NCBI RefSeq assembly: GCF_030643825.1 | Contig: NZ_CP101717.1 | Location: forward strand, 1 to 64,000 | DNA from: Salinispirillum sp. LH 10-3-1 | GTDB lineage: Bacteria; Pseudomonadota; Gammaproteobacteria; Pseudomonadales; Natronospirillaceae | Direction: 5' to 3' | DNA: 64,000 bases | In this document: one piece after another, positions 27,440-31,290 of the stretch | Position numbering within the stretch: position 1 is the first letter of the stretch | Layout of the letters: each line of letters opens with the position of its first letter | Position numbers and translations under genes: made by a program | The notes under the pieces: model-generated | Told to the model about the DNA's origin: nothing | What the model saw: the letters and a program-made list of their open reading frames with translations, nothing else | Database searches by the model: none

Positions 27440-30061
27440 ATGGCGGCACAAACGGCATTGCGTAAACAGGTAAAAGAGCTCGGGCAATTATTGGGGCAAA
27501 CCATTGCACGGGCGAACGGCGCGGAATGGCTAGAGACCATTGAAACCATCCGTGGCTGGGGTAAAGCAGCACGCGACGGCGACGCCAAGGCGCGCCAAGA
27601 GATGGCGGCGTTGTTTGAGCAAATGTCCGACGACGACTTACTGGTGGTGGCGCGCTCCTTCACTCAGTTTTTGAACCTGGTCAACATCGCTGAACAGCAG
27701 CACACCATTACCCCCGAAGGGTTGGCGCAGCAGCAGTATCCAGAGCCGCTGGCAGACCTTTTGCAGCGCCTCGGGCAAAGTGAGCTGACCGCGCAGGAAA
27801 AACAAAGTGCGATTGATACGCTGCGCTTGGAGTTGGTATTGACCGCCCACCCTACTGAAGTAACACGACGCACCATCATTCATAAATACGGTGCCTTGGC
27901 TGGCGAGCTGGCGCACCTGAACGATAAGGCGCAGCCGCGCACGCGCCGTCTCGCGGTGCAGCGCATCGATGAGTTGATCAGTCAATCGTGGCACACGGCG
28001 GAAATTCGTAATGTCCGGCCCACGCCGGTCGATGAAGCACGCTGGGGCTTCGCTGTTATCGAGAATTCGTTGTGGGATGCGGTGCCGCAGTTTATGCGTG
28101 ACATGGAAGAGACCATTGCCGCGCATGGACTGAACTTGCCGCTCGACGCTCGCACCTTAAGCTTCTGCTCTTGGATGGGCGGTGACCGCGACGGCAACCC
28201 CTTTGTCACCGCACGAGTGACCGAGCAGGTGCTGTTGTTGGCGCGCTGGAAAGCAGCCGAGTTGTTCAGCAAGGCGGTCGATGAACTGGCGTCCGAGTTA
28301 TCGATGACCGATTGCACACCCGCCTTACGCACCATGGCGGGCGACAGCAGCGAGCCTTATCGGGCCGTGCTCAAGTCATTGCGTACCCGACTGAATCTGG
28401 TGAAGGATGCTATCCAGTTGCGTTTGGACGATCGCAGCAAAGTCGCCTTGGAAGATTGCTTGCTCAGTGACGATGCTTTGATAACGCCGCTGACTGCGTG
28501 TTACGAGTCGCTGCAGGCCTGTGGCATGGAGGTCATTGCCGAAGGAGCGTTAAAAGACACCTTACGCCGTGCCTATGTGTTTGGCAGCAGTCTGTTGCGT
28601 TTGGATGTCCGTCAGCACAGCGAGCGCCACCGGGCGGTGTTATCCGAGCTGACATTGTATTTAGGGTTGGGTGATTACGAACACTGGGGCGAAGACGACA
28701 AACAAGCTTTTCTGTTGCGAGAATTAGGTAGCAAGCGCCCGCTGATTCCGCTCCAGTGGCAGCCGTCAGAAGAGGTGCAAGAGGTACTGGATACCTGCCG
28801 TGTGGTCAGTCAATTCAGTGCCGACTCCTTCGGTATCTATATTATCTCCATGGCGCGGCATCCGTCCGATGTATTGGCAGTACAGTTGCTGTTGCGGGAG
28901 TGTGGCGTTAACTGGGCCATGCCGGTAGCGCCGTTGTTTGAAACCCTTGATGACTTGGAAGTGGCTCCGGACACCATGCGTCGCCTCCTGTCGGTGGAGT
29001 GGTATCGCGGTTATATCCATGGGCGCCAACACGTCATGATTGGCTATTCCGATTCTGCCAAAGACGCCGGGGTGCTGGCTGCTTCATGGGCGCAGTATCG
29101 CGCCCAAGAGTCACTGGGTCAGTTGGCCGAAGAATTTGGCATTAGCCTCACGTTGTTTCATGGCCGGGGTGGCACCATCGGTCGCGGGGGCGGCCCAGCC
29201 CACGCGGCTATCCTGTCGCAGCCGCCGGGCTCCGTGCAAGGCGGTTTCCGCGTCACCGAGCAGGGTGAAACCATCCGCTTCAAATTCGGTTTGCCGGAAT
29301 TGGCGGTGCGTAGCCTGCATCTGTACGCCAGTGCGGTACTGGAAGCCTTGTTGCTGCCCCCGCCAGAGCCAGAGCCCAAATGGCGCGAGCTGATGTCCCG
29401 CATGGCGACGGTGTCGTGCCAGCACTATCGGGCCATAGTGCGTGACCACCCGGACTTCGTCCCGTTCTTCCGCGCTGTGACGCCGGAACAAGAGTTGGGT
29501 AAGTTGCCGCTCGGTAGTCGTCCTACCAAGCGTAAGCCGGGTGGCGGTGTGGAATCCTTGCGCGCCATTCCGTGGATATTCGCATGGTCGCAGAATCGTA
29601 TGCTTTTGCCGAGCTGGTTAGGTGCGGTACAAGCGATACAGGAAGAAGCCGATGCCGGTGCGGGTGCGCTGGTTGAACAAATGAAAGACCGCTGGCCCTT
29701 CTTCGCGACACGTCTTGCCATGCTGGAAATGGTGTTTTTAAAGACGGATGGCGACATCAGCGGGGCTTATGCCGCACGCCTATCACCGCCGGAGCTGCTG
29801 CATCTCGATACGCTGCTGCGCGAGCAGATGGCGAAGGATGCGCAAACCTTGCGTGCGTTGTTGGCAGAAGATCAACTGATGTTGAACGACAGCTGGAACC
29901 GCGACAGCATCTTGTTGCGTGATCCTTACCTGGAACCCTTGCATTGGCTACAGATTGAGTTGATCGCACGCTTGCGCGCGGCTGAACACAACAGCACGGT
30001 AGAAAAAGCGTTGATGGTGACCATCGGCGGTATTGCGGCAGGGATGAGAAACACGGGCTAG
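27440..30061 (+). CDS. ppc: Phosphoenolpyruvate carboxylase
   Basis: Ppc carboxylates phosphoenolpyruvate to oxaloacetate, refilling the TCA cycle. The catalytic His137 lies in LTAHPTEVTRRT; other family blocks are WMGGDRDGNP, GYSDSAKDAG, FHGRGGTIGRGGGP and the C-terminal GIAAGMRNTG, whose last residues carry allosteric sites in E. coli. Starting at ATG 27440, after an AAGGGGAAGGG ribosome site, gives 873 residues (883 in E. coli); the open frame upstream to 27206 only overlaps yqgE. It is followed by the structured gap that holds a candidate regulatory RNA in the opposite direction. Confidence 0.97.
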   Translation: MAAQTALRKQVKELGQLLGQTIARANGAEWLETIETIRGWGKAARDGDAKARQEMAALFEQMSDDDLLVVARSFTQFLNLVNIAEQQHTITPEGLAQQQYPEPLADLLQRLGQSELTAQEKQSAIDTLRLELVLTAHPTEVTRRTIIHKYGALAGELAHLNDKAQPRTRRLAVQRIDELISQSWHTAEIRNVRPTPVDEARWGFAVIENSLWDAVPQFMRDMEETIAAHGLNLPLDARTLSFCSWMGGDRDGNPFVTARVTEQVLLLARWKAAELFSKAVDELASELSMTDCTPALRTMAGDSSEPYRAVLKSLRTRLNLVKDAIQLRLDDRSKVALEDCLLSDDALITPLTACYESLQACGMEVIAEGALKDTLRRAYVFGSSLLRLDVRQHSERHRAVLSELTLYLGLGDYEHWGEDDKQAFLLRELGSKRPLIPLQWQPSEEVQEVLDTCRVVSQFSADSFGIYIISMARHPSDVLAVQLLLRECGVNWAMPVAPLFETLDDLEVAPDTMRRLLSVEWYRGYIHGRQHVMIGYSDSAKDAGVLAASWAQYRAQESLGQLAEEFGISLTLFHGRGGTIGRGGGPAHAAILSQPPGSVQGGFRVTEQGETIRFKFGLPELAVRSLHLYASAVLEALLLPPPEPEPKWRELMSRMATVSCQHYRAIVRDHPDFVPFFRAVTPEQELGKLPLGSRPTKRKPGGGVESLRAIPWIFAWSQNRMLLPSWLGAVQAIQEEADAGAGALVEQMKDRWPFFATRLAMLEMVFLKTDGDISGAYAARLSPPELLHLDTLLREQMAKDAQTLRALLAEDQLMLNDSWNRDSILLRDPYLEPLHWLQIELIARLRAAEHNSTVEKALMVTIGGIAAGMRNTG

Positions 30062-30079
30062 CCGGCAGAATGGGATGCC

Positions 30080-30100
30080 AAAAAACGAGCATCCTTGCTC
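30080..30100 (-). terminator. Intrinsic terminator of the candidate small RNA
   Basis: GAGCA (30096-30100), loop AGGA, TGCTC (30087-30091) then G and TTTTTT (30085-30080) on the minus strand. The stem is only 5 bp but the U run is uninterrupted. The loop also carries the AAGGA motif. Confidence 0.6.
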
Positions 30101-30181
30101 CGGTGCACAGGGCACCCGCTCAACTCCTTGAGCGACACCATCCTTGGTGCAGCAGAACAGTATCCATGATACTGCTAAAAG
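30080..30181 (-). ncRNA. Candidate CsrA/RsmA-sequestering small RNA (RsmY/RsmZ/CsrB type)
   Basis: Read on the minus strand, about 100 nt carry successive stem-loops with GGA in the loops: CAGTATC-ATG-GATACTG (AUGGA), CACC-AAGGAT-GGTG, CGCTCAA-GGAG-TTGAGCG, a spacer hairpin GGTGC-CCTGT-GCACC, and finally GAGC-AAGGAT-GCTC followed by G and six U. Two loops match the RsmA core CANGGANG exactly (CAAGGATG). Repeated ANGGA loops, a length near 100 nt and an intrinsic terminator made from the last hairpin are the hallmarks of RNAs that titrate CsrA/RsmA. An extended -10 (TGTTATGCT) lies just upstream. The start is estimated from that box. Function is inferred; the architecture is seen directly. Confidence 0.72.
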
Positions 30182-30187
30182 TTAGAC

Positions 30188-30196
30188 AGCATAACA
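30188..30196 (-). promoter_or_regulatory. Extended -10 promoter element for the candidate small RNA
   Basis: Minus-strand TGTTATGCT is a TGnTATnnT extended -10. No good -35 hexamer lies at 17 bp; the region is instead filled by the 20-bp inverted repeat, as would suit an activator-dependent promoter. Confidence 0.4.
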
Positions 30197-30243
30197 GTGA
30201 AAGGTGACGATTTAGGGGGGGTCAAATCGTCACCTTTCACTGT
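30194..30243. repeat. 20-bp perfect inverted repeat with a 10-base G-rich centre
   Basis: The left arm 30194-30213 begins ACAGTGAAAGG and is perfectly repeated, inverted, at 30224-30243. The centre is AGGGGGGGTC. There is no T tract after either arm, so it is not a normal terminator. It abuts the -10 box of the candidate small RNA and spans about -13 to -62 of that transcript, so it could be a control region. It could also be the trace of a small mobile element, but no target duplication is evident. Confidence 0.9.
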
Positions 30244-30257
30244 ATCAATGACTTACG
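30241..30257 (-). promoter_or_regulatory. Degenerate GacA-box-like palindrome
   Basis: Minus strand CGTAAG-N5-GATACA, compared with the GacA/UvrY upstream activating sequence TGTAAG-N6-CTTACA: 5/6 and 4/6 matches, with the spacer one base short. It is centred about 68 bases before the presumed start of the candidate RNA, close to where GacA boxes lie in rsmX/Y/Z promoters. Weak on sequence alone. Confidence 0.25.
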
Positions 30258-30393
30258 GGCGTCTTTTCGGGGCCGAAGCTGTAAAAATTGCCAAAATCGA
30301 CACGATAGCGCGCGTCAACTATCATTGTCGCTCTCTCGGTGCGTTATAAAGCGTGCCGATGGCGATTCTGCTACAAGCCGCTATAGTCCGATA

Positions 30394-30414
30394 ACCCAAG
30401 CGCAATCGTTGGGT
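30394..30414. promoter_or_regulatory. Operator-like inverted repeat before the tandem-HTH gene
   Basis: ACCCAA (30394-30399), 9 bases, TTGGGT (30409-30414), ending 21 bases before the ATG. Such a site could serve autoregulation by the HTH protein. The arms are short and no other copy was located. Confidence 0.3.
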
Positions 30415-30435
30415 GAGCGATTCAGAGGATAAGGC

Positions 30436-31290
30436 ATGTCAAACAATAAGCTGGAGCCAGTGCGAGAGCAAATTCTTGCCCAATTCTCACCACGTGAGGT
30501 CAATTTCGCTGAGTTAGAAGTGGGGCTAGACCAGCTTTATGGATCCAACCTTAAGCGCAGTCGCTTGGCGTTAGGCTGGAGCCAAGAGAAAACGGCTGCA
30601 GAGATCGGTGTTTCGTTGTCGCAGTACCGTAAGTACGAAAGCGGCAGCGACTATGCGCGCATGGGTACCACCGCGCGTTATATGATGCGCACGGGCGTGC
30701 CTTTTCAGTATTTCTTTTTAGGTGGTGGTTACGACTACCTGTTTTCGTCGTTGACCATTCGTGCTGATTTGCTGCAGATGCAGATATTTGTTGGTCAAAG
30801 CAACGACAGAGAGTTCAACCATTTTGTCCACCTCTTGTCAGAGATGCTGGAAGTTCCTTTGCCTACGCCCTTGGACACCGATGGCCTCATCTGGCCGAGT
30901 CGGCAAGAAGTAGCGGCAGAGATTGATGGCTACTACGCCATGGTGGCGGAGGGTCTGCGCAGCTTCCGAGACGTACTACATATTCCACAAGATATGGTTG
31001 CTGACCTGCTGGGCATTGCCTCATCGACCATGGGCAACTATGAGCGCGCCAGCAATGAGCCGCACTTTAACGTCATCATGGCGTTGCGCTTATGGGCAGC
31101 AACCGGTGTTAACCCGCTGTGGTTAACCTACGGTAGTCACTTTTTTAACATGCGTATGTTGCAACACAAGCGTATGGAATACCTGTGTCAGATGCTGCAT
31201 GGCTTGCCCGTGCCGGCACTGCCAAACCTAACGCAGGCGGTAGTCGCCTTGGGAACCTTGCGGGCTGACGTTCGAGGCTCGCGCAGTTGA
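30436..31290 (+). CDS. Tandem XRE-type helix-turn-helix regulator
   Basis: A 284-residue protein, not a family I can name, with two Cro/CI-type HTH units and an evident internal duplication. Unit 1 (about 38-100) reads LKRSRLALGWSQEKTAAEIGV and ends TGVPFQYFFLGGGY. Unit 2 (about 173-234) reads LRSFRDVLHIPQDMVADLLGI and ends TGVNPLWLTYGS. Both keep the Q of helix 2 and the YE(S/R) after helix 3. No ligand or membrane domain is seen. AGAGGATAAGG precedes the ATG. It probably binds DNA as a pseudo-dimer. It sits next to the candidate regulatory RNA and upstream of yheV-pur, but no target is shown. Confidence 0.85.
   Translation: MSNNKLEPVREQILAQFSPREVNFAELEVGLDQLYGSNLKRSRLALGWSQEKTAAEIGVSLSQYRKYESGSDYARMGTTARYMMRTGVPFQYFFLGGGYDYLFSSLTIRADLLQMQIFVGQSNDREFNHFVHLLSEMLEVPLPTPLDTDGLIWPSRQEVAAEIDGYYAMVAEGLRSFRDVLHIPQDMVADLLGIASSTMGNYERASNEPHFNVIMALRLWAATGVNPLWLTYGSHFFNMRMLQHKRMEYLCQMLHGLPVPALPNLTQAVVALGTLRADVRGSRS

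Follow-up and report, generated by a model that had tools for sequence, protein, structure and literature searches.

In gammaproteobacteria, the familiar CsrA sponges are expressed under the control of the GacA/UvrY two-component system, whose box is of the type TGTAAG-N6-CTTACA. RsmV and RsmW of Pseudomonas aeruginosa are exceptions to this rule, being described as RsmA decoys with GGA motifs whose expression is not directly GacA/S-dependent (PMC8395346). Judged by their description, these two are the closest analogues of the RNA reported here among the publications consulted; they act alongside RsmY and RsmZ, whereas in the genome studied here the long RNA is missing from its usual locus. 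According to a review (PMC7652899), McaS and GadY, short RNAs carrying two or more GGA motifs, are reported to bind CsrA, and RsmE sites of high affinity take the form of an ANGGAN hexaloop. Unlike the CsrA-titrating role proposed below, McaS and GadY are base-pairing sRNAs.

The window, a 64-kb stretch of DNA from the genome designated G000, contains a hairpin cluster that shares with RsmY, RsmZ and CsrB the presence of GGA hairpins, a terminator of its own and the character of an intergenic gene. It differs from them by the lack of an Rfam match, by fewer GGA sites and by a window without a GacA-type box. The best explanation, to which we assign a probability of about 0.78, is a compact sRNA which binds and titrates CsrA and is controlled by an activator other than GacA. 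The novelty would lie in a lineage that lacks the usual sponge at the standard locus and pairs a minimal one with a non-GacA promoter; such a lineage would show how a global RNA switch acquires a new input. A literature search for the lineage names together with CsrA found no csrA report. Conservation of the sRNA was followed in three genomes of two genera: G000, Natronospirillum operosum (G006) and a Natronospirillum metagenome-assembled genome (G012).

Anatomy of the hairpin locus

Between about 30184 and 30080, the minus strand forms five hairpins in a row followed by a U run. The features of the region are as follows.

30080..30158, minus strand: predicted compact CsrA-binding sRNA, conserved part (79 nt; four GGA, three of them in hairpin loops)
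30136..30149, minus strand: hairpin 1, CACC-AAGGAT-GGTG, an ANGGAN hexaloop on a stem identical in G006 and G012
30117..30134, minus strand: hairpin 2, CGCTCAA-GGAG-TTGAGCG (CGCTCAAGGAGTTGAGCG), GGA in the loop and pairing kept in relatives
30102..30116, minus strand: spacer hairpin GGTGC-CCTGT-GCACC, loop without GGA, seen in the minimum-energy fold
30087..30100 (30080..30100 with the U run), minus strand: terminator hairpin GAGC-AAGGAT-GCTC, which also presents AAGGAT, then GTTTTTT
30158-30174, minus strand: 5' hairpin CAGTATC-ATG-GATACTG, from the fold, absent from relatives
30166..30171, minus strand: likely -10 hexamer TATCAT, from palindrome spacing
30196..30241, no strand assigned: large palindrome, perfect 18-base arms around a 10-base spacer, suggested as the binding site of an activator near -60
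30436..31290, plus strand: XRE-type protein, two HTH units predicted at about residues 31-94 and 166-231, divergent from the sRNA, candidate palindrome binder
27440..30061, plus strand: ppc-like gene (name from the preliminary description), convergent with the sRNA

Every hairpin that the preliminary description had reported on the minus strand was recovered at its place, both in the sequence and in the minimum-energy fold. Its proposal that the last of them doubles as an intrinsic terminator agrees with the minus-strand prediction of a terminator scan. The minimum-energy fold of 30078-30184 contains all five hairpins (-40.7 kcal/mol, z -2.81; matched or surpassed by 1 of 200 shuffles). In the ensemble, each of the three loop GGAs has a probability of 0.76-1.0 of being unpaired. 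When the piece is shortened to 30078-30162, its stability is no longer unusual (z -1.20; matched or surpassed by 25 of 200 shuffles). The plus strand also folds well (z -5.47). Hairpin 2, with seven pairs and the tetraloop GGAG, lies outside the strict ANGGAN form.

The extent of the RNA had been put at about 100 nt and its promoter at an extended -10. The hairpins do span about 30184-30080, but the conserved RNA covers just about 79 nt (30158-30080), with a 5' end (30158) deduced from the position of the -10. The 5' hairpin, although present in the fold, is not conserved in the relatives and overlaps the -10 favoured by the comparison, TATCAT (30171-30166). TGTTATGCT is an extended -10, but not at the palindrome distance common to the other sites.

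A strict scan of the 64-kb window for ANGGAN hexaloops on at least four Watson-Crick pairs returned three hairpins, none on the plus and three on the minus strand. Two of the three sit 49 nt apart, both at the sRNA locus. Among 120 simulated 64-kb strands (second-order Markov) the mean was 0.71 such hairpins per strand, with no pair within 110 nt. The ANGGAN loop motif is above chance at this locus.

No Rfam family reached its threshold over the 64 kb, and no Csr/Rsm family came up at E up to 10 in 29980-30440, so that the covariance-model check advised by the preliminary description gave no match at the locus. In G000, RF00166 produced six weak matches, none of them at the sRNA locus, and RF00018 none at E up to 1. 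Six permissive Rfam matches near the locus were set aside, five of them microRNA models on the palindrome and one DicF at E 6.4. No GacA-type box (up to two mismatches in the second half-site) was present in the window or in the loci L002, L004, L102, L103, L108 and L109. CsrA itself is encoded by one gene in G000 (PF02599 at 1232457-1232612) and was found in 22 of 22 family genomes. The initial classification as a candidate CsrA sponge is supported by the conserved GGA loops and the encoded CsrA, but its likeness to RsmY/RsmZ is not backed by Rfam or by a GacA-type box in the window; because model match and box were both looked for and both missing, we do not file the sRNA under RsmY/RsmZ. 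From its sequence it is best read as an RNA that would work like RsmY/RsmZ though outside those families.

We propose that the minus strand gives rise to a free-standing sRNA of about 79 nt with a terminator of its own, and that the three GGA hairpin loops of this sRNA, including that of the terminator, would bind CsrA dimers and thereby free the mRNA targets of CsrA. Counting against a CsrA sponge are the small number of sites and the restriction of the conserved element to three genomes in two genera, together with the fold energetics and the poor -35 described below. A natural sponge with just three loop sites would test how few suffice.

Conservation in Natronospirillum

The HTH gene divergent from the sRNA has its closest homologues in G006 and G012. 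In each of these genomes an equivalent minus-strand element lies before that homologue, composed of TTCTGC, CACC-ANGGAN-GGTG, another GGA hairpin and a terminator that carries AAGGA in its loop. In all three genomes GGA lies in three hairpin loops, the terminator included. The hairpin 1 stem is unchanged and its loop reads ATGGAT in G006 and AGGGAC in G012. The counterparts of hairpin 2 are CAAC-AGGGAT-GTTG (G006) and CACC-AGGGAC-GGTG (G012); the stem letters thus differ between CGCTC/GAGCG in G000, CAAC/GTTG and CACC/GGTG, with pairing and loop GGA retained. The terminators are GCAGA-AAGGAC-TCTGC-TTTTT in G006 and GCAGA-AAGGAT-TCTGC-AATTTTT in G012. The spacer hairpin has, by eye, just a short GG...CC counterpart. 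The preliminary description had named stems kept with GGA loops lost as the pattern that would speak against it; both relatives keep the GGA loops, and it is the second stem that varies, with its pairing. Its reading as an Rsm/Csr-type sponge is therefore supported, with transcription and titration of CsrA as predictions.

A covariance model built from the two Natronospirillum copies alone (R1) matches the window at 30158-30082 with 24.5 bits and E 2.2e-5 (21 chosen sources, 128,565 bases), hairpin 2 being poorly aligned. Since the long RNA of another family genome, G016, scores nearly as high (23.6 bits), this match speaks for GGA hairpins in general. Across 390 genomes of the order, 17 had an R1 match at E 0.05 or better and only that in G006 was strong; this search, in which 10 candidates per genome were scored, says little on absence because G000 itself was missed. 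The 16 weak matches, of which 15 with sequence were inspected by eye (1-5 GGA each), were set aside. At the DNA level the sRNA had no match beyond the window itself in 57 genomes. Plasmid records gave no match either.

The conserved loops bear on the possibility that a free-standing sRNA acts by base pairing or via another protein, the GGA loops being incidental. We regard this as improbable: the loop GGA is retained while the letters of the second stem vary, and each genome has two or three ANGGAN hexaloops. In its favour are the mere three loop GGAs, a whole-RNA stability near that of shuffles for all three short RNAs (z -1.20, -0.73 and -0.68) and the free folds of the relatives, which hide two of the three GGAs. 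In G006 and G012 these are the GGAs of hairpins 1 and 2, whose probability of being unpaired is 0.07-0.34. Adopting the form with three hairpins would cost 1.7 kcal/mol in G006 and 2.3 kcal/mol in G012; a CsrA-binding RNA may reach this form if local hairpins form first or if CsrA selects it.

A structured 3' end or terminator of ppc, with no sRNA gene at all, would fit an element which directly follows ppc and whose hairpins fold on the plus strand too. In Natronospirillum, however, a glutathione-synthetase-like gene (Pfam for G006; the G012 ORF looks alike) separates ppc from the element, which keeps its place before the HTH gene although the ppc neighbour differs. Moreover, the terminator and U run are on the minus strand, and the palindrome-linked -10 faces minus-strand transcription, with none at that distance on the HTH side. 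This alternative is very unlikely.

Absence of the long CsrB-like RNA from its usual locus

A neighbour gene without a Pfam match served as query for the locus of the family's long RNA; 16 of the 22 family genomes have a match to it. On the strand leading away from it, the densest 200 nt hold 8-24 GGA in 12 of the 16, as compared with 6 GGA, far from the gene, in G000, G006 and G012 and with 5 in G007, which matches the query partially. The opposite strand reaches 3-9 GGA, and hence G009, with 8 the lowest of the twelve, is not distinct by count alone; its locus shows visible GGA hairpins and a box. A TGTAAG-N6 box (up to two mismatches in the second half) is present in all twelve long-RNA loci, 96-352 nt before the GGA-rich stretch in ten of them and exclusively after it in L148 and L151. 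The four loci without long RNA have no GacA-type box.

The spacing of the flanking genes points in the same direction. In nine of the twelve long-RNA loci a preceding same-strand ORF with a shared C-terminal motif ends 393-1147 nt before the match of the query gene; the one tested of these nine, in L144, is an S1/P1 nuclease by Pfam. The equivalent ORF ends 6 nt before the match in G000 (S1/P1 nuclease), 13 nt in G006 and, read directly from the DNA, about 9 nt in G012; in G000 and G012 its stop codon overlaps the next start. The long RNA is absent from its usual locus in these three genomes. A model of ten 3' parts of long RNAs (R2) found nothing in them at E up to 1. Six further genomes, G004 among them, were likewise without a match, and the known loci of G003 and G018 went undetected; the silence of R2 therefore does not prove genome-wide absence.

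The ppc C-terminal 300 residues have a homologue in 21 of 22 family genomes. In a tree of 300 ppc residues, G000, G006 and G012 group at 87/86 next to G009 and G003, both of which retain the long RNA. Loss in the ancestor of the three genomes is the simplest reading, long branches leaving some forks unsure, and in the clade of G000 and Natronospirillum the short sRNA would stand in for the long CsrB-like RNA of the relatives.

The long CsrB-like RNAs of the family (L144-L153, L157, L158) resemble the present sRNA in having GGA hairpins, a terminator and CsrA-bearing hosts; they differ in GGA density, in their box and in genomic place. That of G003 (L063, L157) is very long, with 37 GGA in 391 nt and repeated CAGGA units, and stays under the Rfam CsrB cut-off; none of L144-L153 and L158 exceeds the RF00018 or RF00166 cut-off. 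G016, G017 and G019 have several copies each.

Palindrome, predicted promoter and divergent HTH protein

The chance expectation of the palindrome core pattern in the window is 0.00. With a model built from seven palindrome copies (R3), the 22 family genomes yielded nine sites whose E was at most 3.3e-4. G000 has four of them, G006 three and G012 two; two of the nine (G000 2667156 and G006 C4:94417) were outside the model input. Single weak matches (E 0.035-0.6) occur in each of G017, G018 and G011, and strong palindromes are confined to G000, G006 and G012. At seven of the nine sites a -10-like hexamer (at least four of six positions, A second, T last) lies on one side of the centre, at a distance of 46-49 nt. 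Only 1 of 2000 flank shuffles reached seven in any 4-nt bin; the bin was picked post hoc and all bins were counted. The remaining two palindromes have, by eye, TG-N-CATCCT and TG-N-CATTCT at 47 nt. Where the palindrome accompanies the sRNA, in all three genomes, the hexamer is oriented towards the sRNA.

The hexamer distance places the palindrome centre near -60, a usual position for activators. A simple sigma-70 scan detected no minus-strand promoter and no good -35 at the sRNA locus. Sigma-54 control of the L025 palindrome was dropped, as the pattern was, by eye, missing at the other sites. Taking into account the promoter sequence, the sRNA is probably driven by a non-GacA activator, with the palindrome taking the place of the GacA box. 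This activator is perhaps the divergent protein with its predicted tandem HTH, or a relative. The first HTH unit of the divergent protein matches HTH_3 (E 2.8e-12), and its structural model (pLDDT 86.8) consists of two five-helix units. A six-member HTH profile matches single-HTH chains, weakly, at both units; Foldseek found nothing at E 0.001 or better, and the best rows were single-HTH likenesses. Protein and palindrome form a candidate regulator-site pair that is directly testable.

For the promoter part, there is a slightly less than even chance that the palindrome is instead bound by an unrelated regulator, that the HTH protein acts as a repressor, or that the palindrome is a repeat element. 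XRE proteins are often repressors, and the HTH paralogue of G000 (L026) has no palindrome in its 1500-nt flank. Against this, strong palindromes and close HTH homologues (at least 40% identity; two each in G000, G006 and G012, none in the other 19) share the same 3 of 22 genomes, the HTH paralogue genes of G012 and G006 have upstream palindromes whose hexamer points to the gene, and the spacing to a -10 is fixed.

A more far-reaching scenario, which we consider unlikely as a whole, combines loss of a GacA-driven CsrB in the ancestor shared with Natronospirillum, a minimal CsrA sponge under the tandem-HTH activator, and the same palindrome driving mRNAs with GGA-rich leaders. If it were true, one regulator would make the targets and lift CsrA from them, which amounts to a feed-forward loop and a new input into the Csr system.

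Several other genes lie behind palindromes. The one at L002 1503-1548 (G000 3381385-3381430) precedes a minus-strand leader of 251 nt with 11 GGA, including TTGCCC-AAGGAC-GGGCAA, and two consecutive HlyC-family acyltransferase genes (minus strand, down to 234). That at L004 1503-1547 (near G000 1849195) is upstream of a beta-CASP/metallo-beta-lactamase-fold protein (minus strand, below 1236), whose 264-nt leader has 6 GGA and a start resembling the L002 leader. In L198 1177-1540 (G000 2667156) a palindrome lies upstream of a 69-residue GerE/LuxR-type protein, whose ribosome-binding site may lie within a GGTAA/TTACC hairpin, a structure not favoured in the free fold. CsrA control of the palindrome-linked genes stays a guess because the folded leader parts of L198 and L002 are no more stable than shuffles. 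On G006 C4 (L190, right end), a palindrome before a YqiJ-like gene is directly flanked by short tandem repeats of the GGTAGAC type.
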